Assembly: GCA_015663245.1 (NCBI GenBank)
Contig: DQSN01000109.1
Location: forward strand, 1 to 45,896
Reading direction: 5' to 3'
DNA length: 45,896 bases
Source of the DNA: Leucothrix mucor
GTDB lineage: Bacteria; Pseudomonadota; Gammaproteobacteria; Thiotrichales; Thiotrichaceae
The translations under genes and the position numbers were made by a program. Position 1 is the first letter of the stretch. The number at the start of each line of letters is the position of its first letter. Below are positions 5,632 to 44,394 of this stretch, one piece after another. Below the pieces are notes generated by a model that was given only the letters and a program-made list of their open reading frames with translations, did not search any database and was not told the origin of the DNA.

Positions 5632-7167
5632 ATGAGTAATTTAGACCCGAAAGAAATACAAGCGCAGTTACAAGCCTTTAAGGATGACCCCATTGCGGAA
5701 ATGAATCGTCACCCCGAAAAAACAGTCAAGCAAAATGACATAGCCTTTGGCACTGCTTTCTCCAGTGAAGATATAGAATCAAAACGCTATTTAGATGCCC
5801 GTGAAGAGTTGCGTAATGCATTATTGGAAGTGGAGGATCCAACAACAGGACGAGCTGCCTTTCAAGCGAATGATAATGCCGCTAACTTGGTTGATGATTT
5901 TCAGTTTAACAATCTACAAGCAATGGATGATGCCAACCTGCTAAAAGCAGAGATTCCCGAAAATCCTTGGTCGGATGATTACTGGGCGCTCTATCAAGGT
6001 ATTCTTGGTAATCGATACAGCGATCAAAACTACCCTTCTTCACGTAACTGGAAGGAAAATAAAGACTATATTGATAGCAACTCTGCCGCAGACATCTTAC
6101 AAAGTGGTAGCTCTGCGCGTATCAATGCTTTATCTCCTTCTGAGAAATATGATGCCATTATTGGCGATAACTCAGGTAGTCTAACCCAAGCCATGTGGGC
6201 AGAAGGTAAATCTTATTATGATCGTTTTGGCTCAGTTGAAACATGGATGGGAATCTGTCATGGATGGGCACCAGCGGCTTATATGCTTCCCCGCCCCACC
6301 AAAACAGTCACCTTAACAACACCTGATGGCAGTACGCCTATCGACTTTTACCCATCTGACATCAAATCATTAGCAACCTTGTTATGGGCAAATATTCGCA
6401 CTCAATCACGCTTTATTGGTGGGCGTTGTAACGATAAAGATCCTGCAACTGATCCTAGTAATGGACGTAATTTATCGGATGATTGTTTTGATACCAACCC
6501 TGGCTCATGGCATATGACCGTGGTCAATCAAATTGGTGTGTCCAAACGTAGCCTAGTGGTCGATGCGACTTATGATTATGAGGTGTGGAATCAGCCAGGA
6601 TTATCCTATGAATACAGTTATATCAATCTAAATACTGATCGCTCTACCAGCAACCTTGCAGATGCCATTATAAACTTGGATGATTATGCTAATGATCCTT
6701 TCTCAAGATATCGAAGTAACCGTACACAGCAGATTGTGGGTATCGCAATGGATTTTGATTATATGGTTGAAACCTCTCCTACCGCAGATAGAACGGATAA
6801 TCCTGATAAAGATGCTATTCATACTGCACGCTATCTCTATGATTTAGAAATTGACGCATCAGGAAAAATTATTGGTGGTGAGTGGCGTACAAACATACAC
6901 CCCGATTTTATTTGGACACCCGCCCCCGATGAACAAGCTATTACTGCATTTGAAGATCAAGCAACAGGATCATGGTCGGGCGCAAACAGCCCATTACCTA
7001 GTAACTGGCAATCTGCGGCTCAGCAAGCCTCAGCGCAACAGCGTGCCCCATTAGCAAAAATTGTAGAGCAGATAATTTCCTTTTCAAATGATGTTGCAGC
7101 CAATACGGATAGTGGAACCACTACTCCTGACGGAATAAGCATTGAGGATATTCTTGATAAAATTTAG
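5632..7167 (+). CDS. Transglutaminase-elicitor-like protein (GP42/Vibrio type)
   Basis: The 511-residue product contains the signature GICHGWAPAAYM with a cysteine at 209, a GSWHMTVVN segment with histidine at 294 and a VVDATYDYEVWNQP segment with aspartate at 311. This order and the CHGWAPAA motif match the transglutaminase-elicitor family known from Phytophthora GP42 and marine Vibrio, so a Cys-His-Asp triad for glutamine-lysine crosslinking is likely. The first 100 residues are acidic and not recognised. There is no Sec signal peptide and no transmembrane segment, odd for a family whose best-known members are secreted; the acidic C-terminus could serve another export route, but that is inference. 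A GGGAG ribosome site lies upstream of the ATG. The gene stands alone. Confidence 0.7.
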   Translation: MSNLDPKEIQAQLQAFKDDPIAEMNRHPEKTVKQNDIAFGTAFSSEDIESKRYLDAREELRNALLEVEDPTTGRAAFQANDNAANLVDDFQFNNLQAMDDANLLKAEIPENPWSDDYWALYQGILGNRYSDQNYPSSRNWKENKDYIDSNSAADILQSGSSARINALSPSEKYDAIIGDNSGSLTQAMWAEGKSYYDRFGSVETWMGICHGWAPAAYMLPRPTKTVTLTTPDGSTPIDFYPSDIKSLATLLWANIRTQSRFIGGRCNDKDPATDPSNGRNLSDDCFDTNPGSWHMTVVNQIGVSKRSLVVDATYDYEVWNQPGLSYEYSYINLNTDRSTSNLADAIINLDDYANDPFSRYRSNRTQQIVGIAMDFDYMVETSPTADRTDNPDKDAIHTARYLYDLEIDASGKIIGGEWRTNIHPDFIWTPAPDEQAITAFEDQATGSWSGANSPLPSNWQSAAQQASAQQRAPLAKIVEQIISFSNDVAANTDSGTTTPDGISIEDILDKI

Positions 7168-34102: not shown

Positions 34103-34161
34103 AAATATAACGTGCTCTGATTTTGCAAATAAACTTAATAAAAATAAAACCTACAAAATCA

Positions 34162-34761
34162 ATGAATAATAAAAAAATAATTTTACTCTTAAGTCTTGCC
34201 ACTGCTTTATTTAGTCAACAATCTTATGCCGCAAGTTACTCACAACGACTCGTCGATGCAGCAATCGAAAGAACTTATCACAAAGTGACTTACGATGGTT
34301 CATACCGTCGCATTGGCTTTCCCTATGGCGATGTGCCAAAAAATATTGGGGTCTGCACCGACGTTGTTATTCGCGCCTATAGAAAACTAGGTATCGACTT
34401 ACAAGAACGCGTCAACGACGATATGAGTAAACGTTTTTTTGAATATCCCAGCTTTGCAAAGTGGGGAATGTCACGACCTGATGCAAATATAGATCATCGA
34501 CGCGTACCTAATTTACGTACATTTTTTGCAAAAAATGGCATCAATTTACCCACGACAAATAATGCAAATGATTACAGACCTGGTGACATAGTAACGTGGA
34601 ACATTGCGCCAAATTTACCACATATTGGCATCGTGACTAATATCATTTCACAAGATAATAAAAGACCTATAATTGCTCACAATATTGGCAAAGGCCCACA
34701 ACTAGAAGATGTATTATTTAAGTTGAAAATTACAGGTCACTACCGATATTTACCTGGTTAA
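34162..34761 (+). CDS. DUF1287 family periplasmic protein
   Basis: From the ATG at 34162 the 199-residue precursor has a signal peptide cleaved after SYA near residue 23. The mature domain shows the family pattern: RIGFPYGDVPKNIGVCTDVVIRAYR with cysteine C65, DHRRVPNLRTFF near 112-123 and DIVTWNI...LPHIGIV. The Cys-His arrangement recalls papain-like amidases, so a cell-wall or amide substrate is possible, but the family is uncharacterised. The frame runs upstream to a TTG at 34123, which would put 13 basic residues before the signal peptide, so I rejected it. Confidence 0.85.
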   Translation: MNNKKIILLLSLATALFSQQSYAASYSQRLVDAAIERTYHKVTYDGSYRRIGFPYGDVPKNIGVCTDVVIRAYRKLGIDLQERVNDDMSKRFFEYPSFAKWGMSRPDANIDHRRVPNLRTFFAKNGINLPTTNNANDYRPGDIVTWNIAPNLPHIGIVTNIISQDNKRPIIAHNIGKGPQLEDVLFKLKITGHYRYLPG

Positions 34762-35920: not shown

Positions 35921-36604
35921 ATGAGAGTTCTAATAGTAGAAGATGAGAAAGACATTCTCAATCAATTAACAGAAGCGTTAAAAAAAGCGGGCTTTACTAT
36001 TGATGCCGCCGAAGATGGCTCACAAGGGCTCTATTATGCGACAGAGTATCCCATTGATATTGCAGTCATTGACCTAGGCCTACCCAAAATTGACGGCATG
36101 GACATTATAAAAAACGTACGCGCCAAAGGTCTCGATTACCCCATCCTTATACTAACAGCAAGAACAAGCTGGCAAAGTAGAGTAGAAGGCTTAGAAGCTG
36201 GTGCGGATGATTATCTTGACAAGCCTTATCACAAGGAAGAGCTAATCGCTAGATTGCGCGCATTACTGAGACGTACGGGACGCTGGTCTCAATCAGAATA
36301 TATCTGTGGCGCTGTACGTTTGAACACTTCAGAGCAACGCGTATATCTTAATGACAACGAAGTAACTTTAACTGCTTTTGAATACAAGGTTCTACAACAC
36401 CTCATGTTACACGCAGGCGAGGTGATATCAAAAACCGAGCTAACCGAAAGCATGTATGATGAAGAGTCCGACCGTGACAGCAATGTTATCGAGGTATTCA
36501 TTCGCCGCTTACGCATGAAATTAGATCCAGACGGCACCTTAGCCCCAATAGAAACACTAAGAGGGCGAGGCTATCGCTTTACTCTTGAGCGAAATAACGC
36601 TTAA
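35921..36604 (+). CDS. phoP: PhoP-type response regulator
   Basis: The 227-residue OmpR/PhoB-family regulator has a receiver domain with acid pocket E7-D8, phosphoacceptor D51, T79 and K101, and a C-terminal winged helix (residues 130-222) ending RGRGYRFTLE. The sequence near the phosphorylation site (VIDLGLPKIDGMD) and the neighbouring PhoQ-like kinase make PhoP the best assignment. A GGGGA ribosome site precedes the start. It is followed 148 bp later by the kinase. Confidence 0.9.
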   Translation: MRVLIVEDEKDILNQLTEALKKAGFTIDAAEDGSQGLYYATEYPIDIAVIDLGLPKIDGMDIIKNVRAKGLDYPILILTARTSWQSRVEGLEAGADDYLDKPYHKEELIARLRALLRRTGRWSQSEYICGAVRLNTSEQRVYLNDNEVTLTAFEYKVLQHLMLHAGEVISKTELTESMYDEESDRDSNVIEVFIRRLRMKLDPDGTLAPIETLRGRGYRFTLERNNA

Positions 36605-36752
36605 AAAATCAGATAATACATTTTGTAGTCCTGCGCACGACATACGGACTATAAAATGATATTACCTTACATCAAACCCACCTCCATACAAATAACAGCC
36701 CTGTTTTCTCTATACCAATAAAAATTCATAGAAAAAATTACCGTATGGAGAA

Positions 36753-38303
36753 GTGCTTTTACAAAAAAATATAATAAACTCCAGAGTAAAAGAGATGAGT
36801 TCTAAAAATCACTCCCCCATCCCTATAAACCATAGACATAATGGCATTTTTTCATCTTTAACAAAGTCATTACTCAGCCGACAATTACTAAGCTCATTTC
36901 TTATAACCATCATTGGTCTATCAATATTAAGCGGATTGTACTACTACAGCCAACAAAAATCTTATATTGAACAAGAGCATAAAACCGCCAATACCTTAGA
37001 CAATGATATATTAGGAATAATAGATTACAACCAAGCAACGGGGCGATACTTCATTGACCCAGAGCTTTATCCTGATATGGAACAGATCATAACTCAGCAT
37101 CAATTAACATCAAATATAGATGATCATTTTGCTTACATTGTTAGTAAAGATACCAATCAAATTATTTGGCACAGTCAGTATTACAAAGATGCCAACTATG
37201 AGGATATCAACAAGCCCCCATATCCAAAAAAATATTCAGATGTACTACCTCTATTCCAACCTAGAAAAAAAATCAAAAATGGAGAAAACAACTTAGAGAT
37301 CTTACCCCCTACAAACGCTATCAAAGAGGGACGCAATACAGCCGATAATAATTACTTAGTGTATTACAGTGCCTTTTCTGAAGCTCCCCATAACTTTTAT
37401 CTCATAGTCGCAAAATCCTCCAAGGAAATGGAAAAAAATAAGTCTGACATAATACAAAAAATAAGTATTTTGATATTAATTAGCAGCCTTTTAGTGCTGA
37501 TCGCACAATTAGTAAATAGTTATTTGGTAATTACACCAATAAAACGATTTGAACGAGAAATAAAGAACATTGAATCAGGCAAGCAAGAGTTTGTTAAAGC
37601 TCGATATCCCACTGAGTTGCTAGAAGTTAAAGGGGCTATCAATGCCTTAGTACATGTAGAAAAGGGACAGAAAAAACGCTACAGAGAGGCTTTAGATAAT
37701 CTTGCACATAGCCTAAAAACACCACTTGCCGTTCTACAAGGCGTTGCAGAAAATAGCAGCTCAATGAGTGACAAACAGCGCACCACCTTAGTTAATCAAG
37801 TCGGCAGAATGAATGACATTATCGCTTATCAACTTCGTCGTGCAGTTGTCAATGATCACAATGCAAATATCAAACGTATAGATATTCGCCCTATTCTCTA
37901 TCGACTAAAAAATTCACTTCTGAAAGTGCATCATGACAAAGTATTTGAAATTGAGATAAATGTAGATGAAAATACCGAGTGTCGCATGGATCTTGATGAT
38001 TTAATGGAGGTCTTTGGCAACCTTATCAACAATGCCTGCCGCTTTTCTGTTGATATCGTATCAATAACAGCCATTCACGATGGAGAAACCATTATTGTTG
38101 ATATTGATGATGATGGACTAGGCTTTCCTGACATGAACCCCTCCGCCCTATTAAAAAGAGGCATTCGAGCCGACAGCAAAACCGAAGGTCAAGGTATAGG
38201 CCTAGCAATTAGCAATGAAATTGTAGAAGCAGCAGGCGGAAAAATAGAGCTACTGGTATCACCTTATGTAGGAGCACGAGTTAGACTATATTTACCCGCA
38301 TAA
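36753..38303 (+). CDS. phoQ: PhoQ-type sensor histidine kinase
   Basis: The kinase has two transmembrane segments (about residues 45-63 and 236-260) around a periplasmic sensor domain of about 170 residues. The cytoplasmic part has a HAMP-like linker, the H-box LAHSLKTPLAVLQG with phospho-histidine H319, the N-box NLINNACRF and ATP-lid motifs DIDDDGLGFP and GQGIGLAI. The H-box is nearly that of E. coli PhoQ. The frame begins with a GTG at 36753; the ATG at 36795 would give a 502-residue protein and is at least as likely. The sensor domain does not show an evident acidic patch for magnesium sensing. Confidence 0.88.
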   Translation: MLLQKNIINSRVKEMSSKNHSPIPINHRHNGIFSSLTKSLLSRQLLSSFLITIIGLSILSGLYYYSQQKSYIEQEHKTANTLDNDILGIIDYNQATGRYFIDPELYPDMEQIITQHQLTSNIDDHFAYIVSKDTNQIIWHSQYYKDANYEDINKPPYPKKYSDVLPLFQPRKKIKNGENNLEILPPTNAIKEGRNTADNNYLVYYSAFSEAPHNFYLIVAKSSKEMEKNKSDIIQKISILILISSLLVLIAQLVNSYLVITPIKRFEREIKNIESGKQEFVKARYPTELLEVKGAINALVHVEKGQKKRYREALDNLAHSLKTPLAVLQGVAENSSSMSDKQRTTLVNQVGRMNDIIAYQLRRAVVNDHNANIKRIDIRPILYRLKNSLLKVHHDKVFEIEINVDENTECRMDLDDLMEVFGNLINNACRFSVDIVSITAIHDGETIIVDIDDDGLGFPDMNPSALLKRGIRADSKTEGQGIGLAISNEIVEAAGGKIELLVSPYVGARVRLYLPA

Positions 38304-38577: not shown

Positions 38578-38653
38578 TGGCGTCCCCACGGGGGTTCGAA
38601 CCCCGGTTACCGCCGTGAAAGGGCGGTGTCCTAGGCCTCTAGACGATGGGGAC
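38578..38653 (-). tRNA. tRNA-Glu (TTC), copy 1
   Basis: The minus-strand sequence folds as a full cloverleaf: acceptor GTCCCCA/TGGGGAC, anticodon stem CCGCC/GGCGG with loop CTTTCAC (anticodon TTC), T-arm with TTCGAAC, discriminator G and an encoded CCA. It is 76 bases with a D-loop one base longer than copy 2. The D-arm reads as in E. coli tRNA-Glu. Confidence 0.97.
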
Positions 38654-38682
38654 TTAGGAATATTCATATATGAGAGTAAAAA

Positions 38683-38757
38683 TGGCGTCCCCACGGGGAT
38701 TTGAACCCCGGTTACCGCCGTGAAAGGGCGGTGTCCTAACCACTAGACGATGGGGAC
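38683..38757 (-). tRNA. tRNA-Glu (TTC), copy 2
   Basis: A second cloverleaf with identical acceptor and anticodon arms (anticodon TTC) and encoded CCA, 75 bases long. It differs from copy 1 in the D-loop (TAGTGGTTAGG) and in the T-loop (TTCAAAT). The copies are 29 bp apart and read in the same direction, so they are likely processed from one transcript. Confidence 0.97.
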
Positions 38758-38784
38758 ACAGTTTAGTGCGACCTTACATCAACG

Positions 38785-39015
38785 CTATTTTTTACTTTCT
38801 GAGTTGTTTTCCAACTCACTTTCTCTTGGAGAAAACATGATAATAGTTGACATTCCTGTAAAAAAAATGACAAAACCAAATGGAACACTCATTAAAAATA
38901 ACTTAGCAAGCTCATCATTATCGCCTTGGAACATTATACCAAAACCGAACATAAGCCCGACAACGGTAATAAATAAGCCGATATAAAGAATTACTTTGCC
39001 AATAAGAGCAATCAT
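38785..39015 (-). CDS. Small membrane protein between tRNA genes
   Basis: The 76-residue protein starts at the ATG at 39015 and has two transmembrane segments (about 4-25 and 38-58) joined by a short loop (FQGDNDELAKLF), with a charged C-terminal tail (SPRESELENNSESKK). The frame runs further upstream through tRNA-Ala, but that part translates the tRNA (GAIAQLGERCNGIAE, a common artefact) and is not coding. GGTTGG lies just upstream of the ATG. It is probably read from the tRNA transcript. I recognise no family. Confidence 0.6.
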   Translation of the reverse strand: MIALIGKVILYIGLFITVVGLMFGFGIMFQGDNDELAKLFLMSVPFGFVIFFTGMSTIIMFSPRESELENNSESKK

Positions 39016-39041
39016 ATTTTTCCAACCTCTTCTACACATTC

Positions 39042-39117
39042 TGGTGGAGCTAGGCGGGATCGAACCGCCGACCTCTGCAATGCCATTGCAGCGCTCTCCC
39101 AGCTGAGCTATAGCCCC
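39042..39117 (-). tRNA. tRNA-Ala (GGC)
   Basis: The cloverleaf has acceptor GGGGCTA/TAGCTCC, D-arm GCTCAGCTGGGAGAGC, anticodon stem CTGCA/TGCAG with loop ATGGCAT (anticodon GGC, reading GCC/GCU), T-arm with TTCGATC and an encoded CCA. It is 76 bases and close to E. coli tRNA-Ala(GGC). Confidence 0.97.
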
Positions 39118-39436: not shown

Positions 39437-41932
39437 ATGGCTTATAAAATCTTAGGAAAGCTTGCGCTTGCGCTGCTGCTCATCACACATACGGCGATTA
39501 CATTAGCAGCGGAGAACACACGATCCCCGCTTGGTATCAACAGCAATGAAGTAATGGATGATGACGCCAGTGTCCCTTTCGTTGATGTATTCAGAGCTTC
39601 TGTGCCTTTTGAAGAGGCTCGACCTTGGCTAACCAAGGGAAAGGTAAAGTATGATGCTAACGGGTGGCCCGTTTATATAGAGAAAAATGGTCAGGTAGGA
39701 ACTCGTTTTATCAACAAACTCCCTGCTGGAACTGTTCCTGATGGTTTATACACCGTATTGTACGAAGGCAAGGGTAAACTTATTTATGGCAATGATGCAA
39801 AGTTAGTACATCACACTCCAGGAAAGGATATTGTCGCGATCACCGCTGGCAAAGACAAAGAGTTACGTGGAACATTAATCATCAAAGAAACTGACCCTCA
39901 AGATCATATACGCAACATCCGTATATTGATGCCTGGAGGAATTTGCATGAACAATCCTAATAAGAGAGTCCACAGCGAAAAAAGTTGCCCTAGAGGTCGC
40001 TACCTGTCCTTCGAAAAACACTACGCAAGCATCATCTTTAACCCTGATTATTTAAACTATATGAATGATTTTAAAGTTATTCGCTTTATGAATATGGCGG
40101 GAATCACCAGAAACCCTATCACTCACTGGAACGAACGCAACACCATGTCGCAACAAACATGGGGTGGCAAACCTACCGTGCGTGGAGCACCTCTTGAAAT
40201 CATGGTAGAACTAGCCAATCAAACAGGTTCAGACCCTTGGTTTTGCCTGCCACACAAGGCAAGTGATGACTATATCCGCAAATTTTCCAGTTATGTGCGT
40301 GATCATTTGCGCCCAGGGTTAAAAGTGTATGTTGAATATACCAATGAAGCATGGAACACTATTTTTACCCAAGCACATTATATGAAGGATCAAGGCGAAG
40401 AGTTAGGACTTGATGGCGATAGAACCAAAGCGGGTAATAAGTTCTACTCCATGCGCTCAGTACAAATTTTTGATATTTGGGAAAAAACCTTTGGTAATAC
40501 ACAACGACTTGTACGTGTAATGGGGAGTTGGACGGGGTACTCACGTCTCTCAGAAATGTTACTGACCTACCGTGATGCCTACAAAAAGACTGACGCACTA
40601 GCTATTGCGCCCTATTTCTACCCAAAACTTGCTACTGCGCGACGCGCAAAATCAAAGAATGATATATTCAAAGCTTTATATGATAAGAAAGAACTGTACT
40701 CTATTCCTGGTGTTATTAAATTAATCTCTAAACATGCCAAATTGACCAAAGATTACGGCATTGACCTAATCGCCTACGAAGGTGGTCAGCACCTAGTTGA
40801 TTGGAAGAGCAGGTCAATTCACAAAAACCCAACCAAGCTATTAATCGCAGCTAATAGAGACTGGCGAATGGCTAAAGCCTATAAAGACTTTTTGGATGGA
40901 TGGAAAAGAGCAGGTGGAACCTTGTTTGTGAACTTCTCAGCACCTCGCACATCACAATGGTTTGGTAGCTGGGGGACTAAAGAGTATTTGACGCAACCAT
41001 TAAATAAAGCACCCAAACACCGCGCCCTCCTCCAATTTATTCGCTCTAATCCATGTTGGTGGAAAGGTTGTACCAGCCCTTATTTTGTACGAAAAGCCAA
41101 GCCTGCGAAAAATCCTGGCACAGGTGTTTATGCCTTGGTTAGAAATGGCAAAAAATCCACTTACAAAAAAGCAGCTAAAACTGCTACCAAGGCTGTTACA
41201 CCAAAACCAAAGGTAGTGATTACTAAAAAACCTAGCACAACTATAACAACAGTAGCCGCGGCAAGTACGGTGATATTAGCCAAACCTGTCATCAAAGAGA
41301 TCGTTAAACCCACATCTAAGTTTACGCAAAAACCTATTAAACAAGCACAACGCCCAGACTTGATCATTAGACGTAGCAAACAACATGGGCAATGGAGTCA
41401 TCAAGAGGCTGTCCAACTCAAAAATATTATTGGTGGCAACTTAACAGGCAAAAAGGATTTAAGTGCAGTCTGGCAAGCAAAGTGGGACAATGAGTTTTTA
41501 CACATACGCGTAGATACTTTAGATGACCACTTTGTACGCGACTCAGCAGCTCCGTGGAGTGACGACTCGATTGAAATTTATATAGATGCTGATGGCAGTC
41601 GCACCGCATCATTTGATGGCAAAAATGACTTCCATTTGATTTTCCGTTGGAAAGATCAAAAAGTTAATTTAAGCCAGAACTCAGCACGAAGAGGCGATAT
41701 GAGAGTCCAACAAACCATGACACGTACAGATCATGGACTCATATTAGAAGCAGCCATACCATGGAGATCACTAGGTGTTCAACCAAAAGAAGGACATTCT
41801 ATTGGTATCGACATACAAATCAATGATGATGATGATGGGAATGACCGTGACGCCAAGCTAGCATGGCACGCTAAAAGTGATGATTCATGGAAGAATCCAC
41901 AAACATTTGGCCGTTTAGTACTTGGAATATAA
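39437..41932 (+). CDS. Secreted TIM-barrel-like glycosidase candidate with CBM9-like C-terminus
   Basis: The 831-residue precursor has a signal peptide (cleavage after LAA near residue 25), then a module that opens LGINSNEV...SVPFVDVFRASVPF. The core shows the pattern of clan GH-A hydrolases: YVEYTNEAWN with an Asn-Glu pair N303-E304 (acid/base position) and LIAYEGGQHLVDW with E448 (nucleophile position), 144 residues apart. A Lys/Thr/Pro-rich linker (about 555-650) leads to a C-terminal CBM9-like beta domain (DLSAVWQAKWDNEFLHIRV, SDDSIEIYIDADGSR, EAAIPWRSLG), as in xylanases and sugar-binding proteins. I cannot place the core in a named GH family. A paralogue follows downstream. Polysaccharide cleavage outside the cell is inferred. 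Confidence 0.75.
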   Translation: MAYKILGKLALALLLITHTAITLAAENTRSPLGINSNEVMDDDASVPFVDVFRASVPFEEARPWLTKGKVKYDANGWPVYIEKNGQVGTRFINKLPAGTVPDGLYTVLYEGKGKLIYGNDAKLVHHTPGKDIVAITAGKDKELRGTLIIKETDPQDHIRNIRILMPGGICMNNPNKRVHSEKSCPRGRYLSFEKHYASIIFNPDYLNYMNDFKVIRFMNMAGITRNPITHWNERNTMSQQTWGGKPTVRGAPLEIMVELANQTGSDPWFCLPHKASDDYIRKFSSYVRDHLRPGLKVYVEYTNEAWNTIFTQAHYMKDQGEELGLDGDRTKAGNKFYSMRSVQIFDIWEKTFGNTQRLVRVMGSWTGYSRLSEMLLTYRDAYKKTDALAIAPYFYPKLATARRAKSKNDIFKALYDKKELYSIPGVIKLISKHAKLTKDYGIDLIAYEGGQHLVDWKSRSIHKNPTKLLIAANRDWRMAKAYKDFLDGWKRAGGTLFVNFSAPRTSQWFGSWGTKEYLTQPLNKAPKHRALLQFIRSNPCWWKGCTSPYFVRKAKPAKNPGTGVYALVRNGKKSTYKKAAKTATKAVTPKPKVVITKKPSTTITTVAAASTVILAKPVIKEIVKPTSKFTQKPIKQAQRPDLIIRRSKQHGQWSHQEAVQLKNIIGGNLTGKKDLSAVWQAKWDNEFLHIRVDTLDDHFVRDSAAPWSDDSIEIYIDADGSRTASFDGKNDFHLIFRWKDQKVNLSQNSARRGDMRVQQTMTRTDHGLILEAAIPWRSLGVQPKEGHSIGIDIQINDDDDGNDRDAKLAWHAKSDDSWKNPQTFGRLVLGI

Positions 41933-41986
41933 CACTTAGTACATAAATACTACTTCCATGCTTTATATAACTATAGAGTACTCCTC

Positions 41987-42015
41987 CTTTCCCAGTAGCT
42001 CAGCTACTGGGAAAG
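41987..42015 (+). terminator. Perfect hairpin between the two glycosidase-like genes
   Basis: Two perfect 14-base arms (CTTTCCCAGTAGCT and AGCTACTGGGAAAG) flank a single central base, 54 bp after the first gene's stop. The tail after the hairpin is only moderately T-rich (CTTGTATTTT). It probably limits read-through into the second gene and stabilises the first transcript. Confidence 0.7.
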
Positions 42016-42040
42016 CTTGTATTTTGAGCAGTTGTTTTAC

Positions 42041-42069
42041 TTGAAAAAAGCAGCTTTGGACTAGATAAT
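42041..42069 (+). promoter_or_regulatory. Sigma-70 promoter for the second glycosidase-like gene
   Basis: TTGAAA (42041-42046), a 17-base spacer and GATAAT (42064-42069) match the sigma-70 consensus with two mismatches. It lies between the hairpin and the second gene, about 95 bp before its start, so the second gene can be expressed alone. Confidence 0.6.
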
Positions 42070-42165
42070 CTCGTACTAGCTGGTATACGGACGAATAGAA
42101 TGAGTAGGTTTGTTATTTAAAACCAACATTATTTATCAGTTTATTTTCACAACACTCCTTTAGCT

Positions 42166-44394
42166 ATGGATGGTTTAATGCGTGTATTCAAAAAAGTACC
42201 TGTACTTATCTCTCTTATTTCCGCAATAAGTATTGGTCTACTACTCTACCTTATATCACGTCCCCAGCCAGTTCCCACACCGACAAAATCTGAACTGAAA
42301 ACCATACAAAAAAGCCATAGTGATGCAATTTTGGGTATTAACACCAATGAGGTAGGTGAAGATACATCAAGTATTCCCTTCGTTGATCTATTTAAAGCCT
42401 CCATTCCTTTTGATGAAACATACCCTTGGTTAAGTAAAAAAGAAGTTGAATATGATCAGAATGGCTGGCCAAAAAATTTACATGGTGGTGTTGCAGGCAC
42501 AAAGTTTCTTAACCGACTTCCCGTGGGCACAGTGCCTGATGGTTTTTACACCGTTCTTTACGAAGGTCAGGGAAAAATCCACTATGGTAACGATGCCGCG
42601 CTAGTCGTACATCGCCCTGGAAAAGACATTATTGAAGTGAAAGCAGGTAAAGATAATATTCTTAATGCCTCCTTAGTCATTAGAGCAACTGACCCAAAAA
42701 ATTATATCCGCAATATCCGCATTCTTATGTCTGGTGGCATCTGTAAAAATGCACCACATAAGCATGTACAAGATAATAGCGACTGCGCCTCAAATGATTA
42801 TCTATCTTTTGAAGAAAACTATAAGACCATACTGTTTAACCCCTATTACATAGACTTTATGCGCCACTTTAAAGTGGTGCGTTTTATGAATATGCAGGGA
42901 ATGACGCGCAATCCTATTGAAGATTGGAAGGATCGTAATACTCTCGAAAAAGCAACTTGGGGAGGCAAACCGAAGTCCCGAGGTGCTCCTGTAGAGATCA
43001 TGGTAGAACTTGCAAATCACCTAAAAGCCAACCCTTGGTTCTCCATGCCTTACAAAGCAAGTGATGATTACATCCAAGAATTCGCACAATACGTTAATGA
43101 TAATTTAGACCCCGAACTAAAAGTCTATGTCGAATATAGCAATGAGACATGGAACCCTATTTTTGTGCATCACGAATATGCAATGCAGATGGGAATAAAA
43201 CAAAATCTTGATAAAGAAGAAAGTGTTGCAGGGCAAAAATATTATTCAAAACGAAGTGTTGAAACTTTTAACATTTGGCAAAAAGAGTTTAAAGGTACTG
43301 AGCGATTAATTCGTACCATCGGTGGCTGGTCAAGTAACTCACGTCTTTCCAGCCTATTACTCTCCTATAAGGATGCTTACAAATACACCGATGCGCTAGC
43401 TATTGCGCCCTACTTTACCGCTAAATTAGACAAAATCAGAAAAGCCGAAACAACAGATGATATTTTTGATTTACTCACCAGTAAATATTCCAAAAACGGT
43501 TTAACTGCCAGTATCCAACAAATGCGCGTCCAACAAAAAGTTGCCGAAGCATTTGGGGTGGATTTAGTTGCCTATGAAGGCGGTCAGCACTTAGTTGATT
43601 GGGATACAAGAAAGGTAGATGATGATCCCAACCCGCTTCTGTACGCTGCCAACCGCGACCCAAGAATGGGCGAACTGTATCTTGAATATTTACGGGCATG
43701 GAACAAGGCAGGCGGAAAAGTTTTTGTGCTGTTTAGCGCACCAAGAATTTATAGTTGGTACGGTAGCTGGGGACTCAAAGAGCATATCTCTCAAGCACGC
43801 GATAAAGCACCTAAGTTTGATGCAACACTCAGCTACTTAGAAGAAATCAAGAAAATACGTGATATATCGAGCCGACAATTAAAAGTTGGAAAAAGTAAAA
43901 CTATCGCTATTCCCGCCTCTAAAAACATTAAAGATATTTGGAGCTTAGAAACCTATTGGCTAATTGATCCAGCCCCTAAAGAGACAATATCAGCCGACTT
44001 AATCGAACCACAGTTAGACATAAAAAAAGACCTATCTGCAAAATGGCAAGCGCACTGGGATAGCGAAAAACTTTATCTAACCCTTGCAATACAAGATGAC
44101 AAGGTGCAACTAGGTGACTCCGTACAGTTCAATATAACCACCGATAAACTCTATCAGTTTGAACACTCTCCCTATGGCAATGCTAGCAATACATCTCTTT
44201 GTACAGAAGTTGAAGGAGGCTACCTGCTGACACTTGCCATCTCCTGGAAGAAGTTAAACTTCGAGCCACACGCTACTGCTAAAATACGCCTACGTCTGCA
44301 TATTACTGATGTTGACGAAGGCGCAAAAACAACAGTACTAATTTGGCCAGCATCGCGCACCAAACTAGATCCTATTATGGAGCTGGGCAATTAA
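42166..44394 (+). CDS. Membrane-anchored paralogue of the TIM-barrel-like glycosidase candidate
   Basis: The 742-residue protein is collinear with the upstream gene: ILGINTNEV...SIPFVDLFKASIPF, YVEYSNETWN with N326-E327 and LVAYEGGQHLVDW with E471, the same 144-residue spacing. Instead of a cleavable signal peptide it has an uncleaved hydrophobic segment (VPVLISLISAISIGLLLYLI, about residues 11-30), so it is probably anchored to the inner membrane facing the periplasm. The Lys/Thr/Pro linker is missing. A shortened, diverged CBM9-like domain follows (DLSAKWQAHWDSEKLYLTL near 648-666). An ATG four codons later (42178) is an alternative start. A duplication with split localisation is the simplest reading. 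Confidence 0.75.
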   Translation: MDGLMRVFKKVPVLISLISAISIGLLLYLISRPQPVPTPTKSELKTIQKSHSDAILGINTNEVGEDTSSIPFVDLFKASIPFDETYPWLSKKEVEYDQNGWPKNLHGGVAGTKFLNRLPVGTVPDGFYTVLYEGQGKIHYGNDAALVVHRPGKDIIEVKAGKDNILNASLVIRATDPKNYIRNIRILMSGGICKNAPHKHVQDNSDCASNDYLSFEENYKTILFNPYYIDFMRHFKVVRFMNMQGMTRNPIEDWKDRNTLEKATWGGKPKSRGAPVEIMVELANHLKANPWFSMPYKASDDYIQEFAQYVNDNLDPELKVYVEYSNETWNPIFVHHEYAMQMGIKQNLDKEESVAGQKYYSKRSVETFNIWQKEFKGTERLIRTIGGWSSNSRLSSLLLSYKDAYKYTDALAIAPYFTAKLDKIRKAETTDDIFDLLTSKYSKNGLTASIQQMRVQQKVAEAFGVDLVAYEGGQHLVDWDTRKVDDDPNPLLYAANRDPRMGELYLEYLRAWNKAGGKVFVLFSAPRIYSWYGSWGLKEHISQARDKAPKFDATLSYLEEIKKIRDISSRQLKVGKSKTIAIPASKNIKDIWSLETYWLIDPAPKETISADLIEPQLDIKKDLSAKWQAHWDSEKLYLTLAIQDDKVQLGDSVQFNITTDKLYQFEHSPYGNASNTSLCTEVEGGYLLTLAISWKKLNFEPHATAKIRLRLHITDVDEGAKTTVLIWPASRTKLDPIMELGN

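Follow-up and report, generated by a model that had tools for sequence, protein, structure and literature searches.

The P1–P2 gene pair and its neighbourhood

We analysed a stretch of 45,896 nucleotides (the window), a single contig from the 2.7 Mb draft genome of Leucothrix mucor. Two genes lie in tandem on its forward strand: P1 (39437..41932, 831 aa), predicted to encode an exported GH-A-like enzyme with a C-terminal CBM9 domain, and P2 (42166..44394, 742 aa), predicted to encode a membrane-anchored GH-A-like paralogue. P1 was recognized as a gene by its open reading frame, purifying selection and orthologues, and P2 by its open reading frame and its identity to P1, which BLASTP put at 54% over 516 residues with one gap. 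P1 carries N303 and E304 in the motif VEYTNEAWN and E448 in AYEGGQHLVDW; the equivalents in P2 are N326/E327 and E471, and in both proteins the second glutamate follows the Asn-Glu pair after exactly 144 residues. The initial annotation had described adjacent genes for collinear paralogues, and the reading frames, identity, motifs and spacing all bear this out. It had also spoken of two such genes; this is right for the pair and too low for the host genome, in which we found eight on seven contigs. Orthologues of P1 are present in Cocleimonas, Leucothrix, Thiothrix and Thiolinea, and the nearest named relatives of its core (up to 91% identical) come from MAGs labelled Thiotrichaceae, Cocleimonas or Leucothrix.

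Upstream of P1, Pfam identified an OmpR-type response regulator (36604 being the end of its gene, which starts at 35921) and a histidine kinase (36753-38303), together spanning 35921..38303 on the forward strand. This two-component system, which may regulate the P1/P2 pair, is also found upstream of P1 in the orthologous loci of Cocleimonas and Leucothrix. The gene for a DUF1287 protein (34123-34761 in the window, E = 8e-67) immediately precedes the two-component system and P1, and does so in the loci of these two genera as well. Between the two-component system and P1, the reverse strand carries three tRNA genes (two Glu, one Ala; 38578-39117). A consensus scan placed a terminator-like hairpin of 13 pairs between P1 and P2 (41987..42015, forward strand), which makes a single P1-P2 operon doubtful. 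We considered the NagZ-like GH3 gene adjoining P2 as a functional partner and rejected it, as it is absent beside P1-P2 in the relatives fetched. Elsewhere in the window, the list of open reading frames includes a 511-aa protein (5632-7167) with neither an evident role nor a signal peptide.

The two proteins differ at both ends. By rule-based criteria, P1 begins with a putative signal peptide (about residues 1-25; 39437..39511, forward strand), a hydrophobic stretch followed by small residues before the core, and most copies of the family have such a cleavable-looking peptide directly before the core. The same criteria gave P2 and its orthologues a membrane helix and a linker instead; in P2 the helix comprises residues 2-31 (42169..42258, forward strand) in the AlphaFold model, and the layout is the same in the orthologues. 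At the C-terminus, the CBM9 domain of P1 (residues 652-829; 41390..41923, forward strand) matches Pfam with E = 3e-40 and the CBM9 of Thermotoga maritima Xyn10A (PDB 1i82) with E = 3.5e-18. Its W707 (41555-41557) and W818 (41888-41890, both forward strand) fall in the clamp columns of the alignment, opposite W71 and W175 of TmCBM9-2, the clamp tryptophans of that domain (PMC8280721). P2 ends in a CBM9-like β-sandwich (about residues 579-740; 43900..44385, forward strand), for which 1i82 is the best Foldseek match and the Pfam CBM9 match is weak and partial (E = 2.5e-6, with a score of 27.9 narrowly passing against 23.4). The P2 model retains the fold, and in P2 and all its aligned orthologues both clamp-tryptophan columns are deleted or replaced. 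The CBM9-like domains proposed initially are thus found in full in P1, clamp included, and as a fold without the sugar clamp in P2. Across the family, 61 of 62 C-terminal tails matched CBM9, and both clamp tryptophans are kept in 37, that of P1 among them. Judged from N-terminal layout and clamp states, P1 has the look of an exported protein that can hold on to sugar chains, while P2 looks fixed in the inner membrane and devoid of sugar grip by the CBM9 route; the pattern is plain in the sequences, and its meaning for localisation and binding is what we infer from it.

Predicted fold, active site and relation to named families

An AlphaFold2 model of the P1 core, built with 68 sequences (model residue 1 is P1 residue 27), reached a pLDDT of 93.2 and a pTM of 0.92. 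It forms a (β/α)8 barrel in which all eight strands can be traced. Strand 1 comprises model residues 6-9 and strand 2 residues 188-190, and a β-domain (about 44-152) lies between them, corresponding to about residues 70-178 of P1 (39644..39970, forward strand) by AlphaFold secondary structure. Strand 4 (271-275) is followed by the Asn-Glu pair (277-278), and strand 7 (417-420) by the second glutamate (422); an invariant arginine (190) closes strand 2, and Tyr 367 comes after strand 6. In P1 numbering, N303-E304 (40343..40348) would hold the acid/base, E448 (40778..40780) would be the nucleophile, and the arginine is R216 (40082..40084; all forward strand). The full-length P2 model (pLDDT 86.6) has the same barrel, with E327 immediately after strand 4 and E471 immediately after strand 7, together with the N-terminal helix and C-terminal sandwich described above; alignment and model agree on N326-E327 (43141..43146) as predicted acid/base and on E471 (43576..43578, both forward strand) as predicted nucleophile.

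A barrel with an Asn-Glu pair after strand 4 and a glutamate after strand 7 is the plan of clan GH-A, to which the initial annotation had attributed the motifs. A TIM barrel with E304/E448 and E327/E471 after these strands had been set beforehand as the test of that attribution, and we saw it in both models. The models agree with the clan in the barrel, in an Asn-preceded predicted acid/base at the end of strand 4, in a predicted nucleophile at the end of strand 7 and in their nearest folds. For both models the nearest PDB folds by Foldseek were almost all clan GH-A enzymes, from about ten families, which we take to include GH51, 53, 10, 26, 164, 79, 5, 1 and 2 (numbers partly from entry titles). 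Identity was about 10%, TM-scores were at most about 0.5, and no family stood ahead of the others. A viral structure library yielded nothing beyond diffuse TIM-barrel matches. P1 and P2 thus share the barrel and the Asn-Glu/Glu placement with the retaining hydrolases of the clan (GH51, GH10, GH26, GH53, GH79, GH164, GH5, GH30), but differ from them in their low structural and sequence similarity, in the lack of any sequence or profile match and, for P1, in the extra β-domain between strands 1 and 2.

The conservation alignment comprised Thiotrichaceae, alphaproteobacteria, another gammaproteobacterium and a cyanobacterium, with some loci entered twice. The arginine, the Asn-Glu pair, a Trp-Asn pair and the strand-7 glutamate are identical in all covering rows (147-148; 147/147 for R216 and N303-E304, 148/148 for E448), and the strand-6 tyrosine is kept in all but one. 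Pairs of orthologues gave dN of 0.06-0.11 and a dS that is saturated or about 2, so the genes are under strong purifying selection by this measure. Invariant catalytic columns together with low dN against dS look like the mark of a working active site. In the tree, P1 and P2 fall into separate, well-supported clades with several genera in each, which implies that the duplication predates those genera. Apparent in-frame stops in some relatives had suggested pseudogenes; we read them as the normal ends of shorter, core-only copies. One copy, on a contig filed as Aquificaceae (QOAQ01000145.1), nests within this Thiotrichaceae genus in the tree, and the contig is most likely mis-binned.

Searches with single sequences (P1 core, P2 and 14 relatives) and with a 16-sequence profile found no credible Pfam family for the core and no matching chain among PDB sequences, and neither P1 nor P2 matched an NCBIfam model. 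The C-terminal CBM9 was the sole domain recognized in these three collections. The GH5 profile PF00150 gave no Pfam match and an hhalign probability of 0.1-0.3%; the GH39 profile PF01229 gave none either and, as a three-sequence profile, at most about 2% in hhalign, where the same small alignments related GH5 to GH39 with 65% probability. The initial view that the core resembles no named glycoside hydrolase family therefore holds against Pfam, NCBIfam and PDB sequences, and a literature search found no named family for such proteins. We regard P1 and P2 as members of a candidate undescribed family, set apart by comparison with those three collections, as distinct from CAZy/dbCAN profiles. It is somewhat unlikely that the core instead belongs to a numbered CAZy family lacking representation in Pfam, NCBIfam or PDB: new families enter CAZy every year, but the literature search and the three collections were silent, and where alphaproteobacterial members have an annotation, it reads hypothetical or refers to RTX repeats or to a GH16 domain fused to the core.

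Distribution and setting of the family

The family was found in all 63 genomes checked from Thiotrichaceae and its order (8 genera), with 3-16 matches each, and every filamentous sulfur bacterium of the group that we checked carries several copies. Elsewhere it is sparse, with 8 of 366 sampled genomes positive among other Gammaproteobacteria and 12 of 397 in a further sample of genomes spread over the phylum, nine of these 12 within one family. Relatives with the invariant catalytic residues include alphaproteobacteria and a cyanobacterium. The gene also occurs in members of the group for which no sheath has been described, so the sheath cannot be the only substrate.

Within Thiotrichaceae, the other copies are scattered in the genomes, and synteny with exopolysaccharide genes is weak: about 10 of 84 loci have a gene resembling an exopolysaccharide reference within the fetched flanks, in one case a sugar transferase at a distance of 107 bp. 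Loci outside Thiotrichaceae are more informative. The Shinella copy adjoins polysaccharide-export and O-antigen-ligase genes; in Rhodobacter, it stands among genes for Wzz, a sugar transferase, the exosortase XrtD, a glycosyltransferase and a flippase; in Novosphingobium, it follows an exosortase-like gene (judged from its sequence) and one short gene. In Paracoccus, where the core is fused to GH16, the surrounding stretch also encodes a lipopolysaccharide-biosynthesis protein, a nucleotide-sugar dehydrogenase and glycosyltransferases. RTX repeats occur on the Roseobacter, Rhodobacter and Paracoccus copies. The Pseudoalteromonas copy had no exopolysaccharide-type neighbours.

Some copies have further peculiarities. 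A paralogue on contig C84 (L039:7548-10244, reverse strand) is lipoprotein-like (LTAC-G), has an insert of about 80 residues in the core and adjoins a gene for a LamG-plus-GDSL (SGNH) protein (L039:5892-7124, reverse strand). In several Rhodobacteraceae-like relatives (L125, L131), an SGNH-like domain is apparently fused ahead of the same core.

Proposed function and alternatives

We favour the reading that P1 and P2 represent an undescribed family of clan-GH-A-type retaining β-glycosidases that trim or remodel exopolysaccharide made by the cell itself, and consider it reasonably probable as a whole. Its parts differ in strength. Retaining glycosidase chemistry of the GH-A type is likely; that the substrate is a polymer of the cell's own making is a view toward which the evidence tips modestly. 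The predicted nucleophile, E448 or E471, would attack the anomeric carbon, with E304 or E327 as acid/base, and cutting would retain configuration and probably occur within the chain (endo mode). The natural substrate would be the exopolysaccharide of the slime, sheath or holdfast. P1 would be exported and tethered to the polymer through its working CBM9, while P2 would face the periplasm from its inner-membrane anchor, its CBM9 remnant no longer gripping sugar.

This reading draws on the barrel with both glutamates, GH-A enzymes as nearest folds, the invariant Arg, Asn-Glu and Glu, and purifying selection; on the intact CBM9 clamp of P1 and the alphaproteobacterial exopolysaccharide and exosortase loci, some with RTX or GH16 fusions; and on the universal presence and multiplication in Thiotrichaceae. 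That the proteins act on polysaccharides, as first suggested, is supported by the CBM9 domains, the export signals and the loci of the alphaproteobacterial relatives. A precedent is PslG (GH39) of Pseudomonas aeruginosa, a retaining endo-glucosidase whose gene belongs to the Psl cluster (PMC11912335). PslG is of GH-A type and encoded with exopolysaccharide biosynthesis genes, and we take it as the closest functional precedent by analogy, one that may work alike; it differs from P1 and P2 in profile, as the hhalign value of at most about 2% against GH39 indicates, and in having no CBM9 and not being multiplied. Against our reading count the modest TM-scores to known GH-A enzymes, the small share of Thiotrichaceae loci with a recognized exopolysaccharide gene, and the copies, P2 included, that have no intact CBM9.

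Many copies per genome and secretion together with CBM9, which was first recognized in xylanases, would also suit nutritional depolymerases that break down polysaccharides of foreign origin (from algae, plants or animals) as a carbon source. We consider this unlikely: the alphaproteobacterial relatives sit in loci for synthesis and export, the host genome yielded no GH5 and no GH39 at the thresholds applied, P2-type copies remain at the membrane, and presence in all 63 genomes of the group is more in keeping with a core function of the cell than with nutrition. P1 resembles Xyn10A in its CBM9; P2-type copies have lost the clamp, and the module is joined here to an unassigned core in place of a GH10 xylanase. 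Retaining GH-A-type active sites can also transglycosylate, and a role in building matrix or sheath by joining or cross-linking chains with the same two glutamates would fit the universal presence of the family and the predicted periplasmic position of P2. Hydrolysis is, however, the commoner activity of the clan, and the sequence offers no way of telling the two apart; transglycosylases in place of hydrolases are quite improbable in our estimate. Protein parts do decay, as in the CBM9 of P2, but catalytically dead sugar-binding scaffolds of GH-like fold are barely credible, because dead paralogues usually lose one of the catalytic residues and both Glu, the Asn and the Arg are invariant here even in distant bacteria.

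On the reading as self-directed glycosidases, P1 and P2 form a candidate new family of a mechanistic kind already known, all the more interesting for occurring throughout the filamentous sulfur bacteria, and in multiple copies. Sheathed filaments and rosettes are known from members of the group (PMC8570282, PMC3368414), which makes a link to sheath, rosettes or holdfast plausible. The Thiothrix nivea genome paper describes sheath layers 'of so far unknown structure' (PMC3368414). More tentatively, we suggest an unnumbered clan-GH-A family, with several copies in each Thiotrichaceae genome, whose role would be to build or remodel the polymer of filament, sheath and rosette, with an ancient division of labour between a secreted, CBM9-tethered form (P1) in the matrix and a form anchored to the membrane (P2) in the periplasm. 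If confirmed, the family would bring a new member, one whose inserted domain is unusual, into a large and well-studied clan of glycosidases, would provide candidate enzymes shaping matrix, sheath or holdfast in Thiothrix, Leucothrix and Cocleimonas, and would let automatic annotation name a set of proteins that are now labelled 'hypothetical' or 'calcium-binding' in exopolysaccharide loci of alphaproteobacteria. If the assignment of P1 to the matrix and P2 to the periplasm is true, the sheath and holdfast enzymology of filamentous sulfur bacteria would become directly testable.
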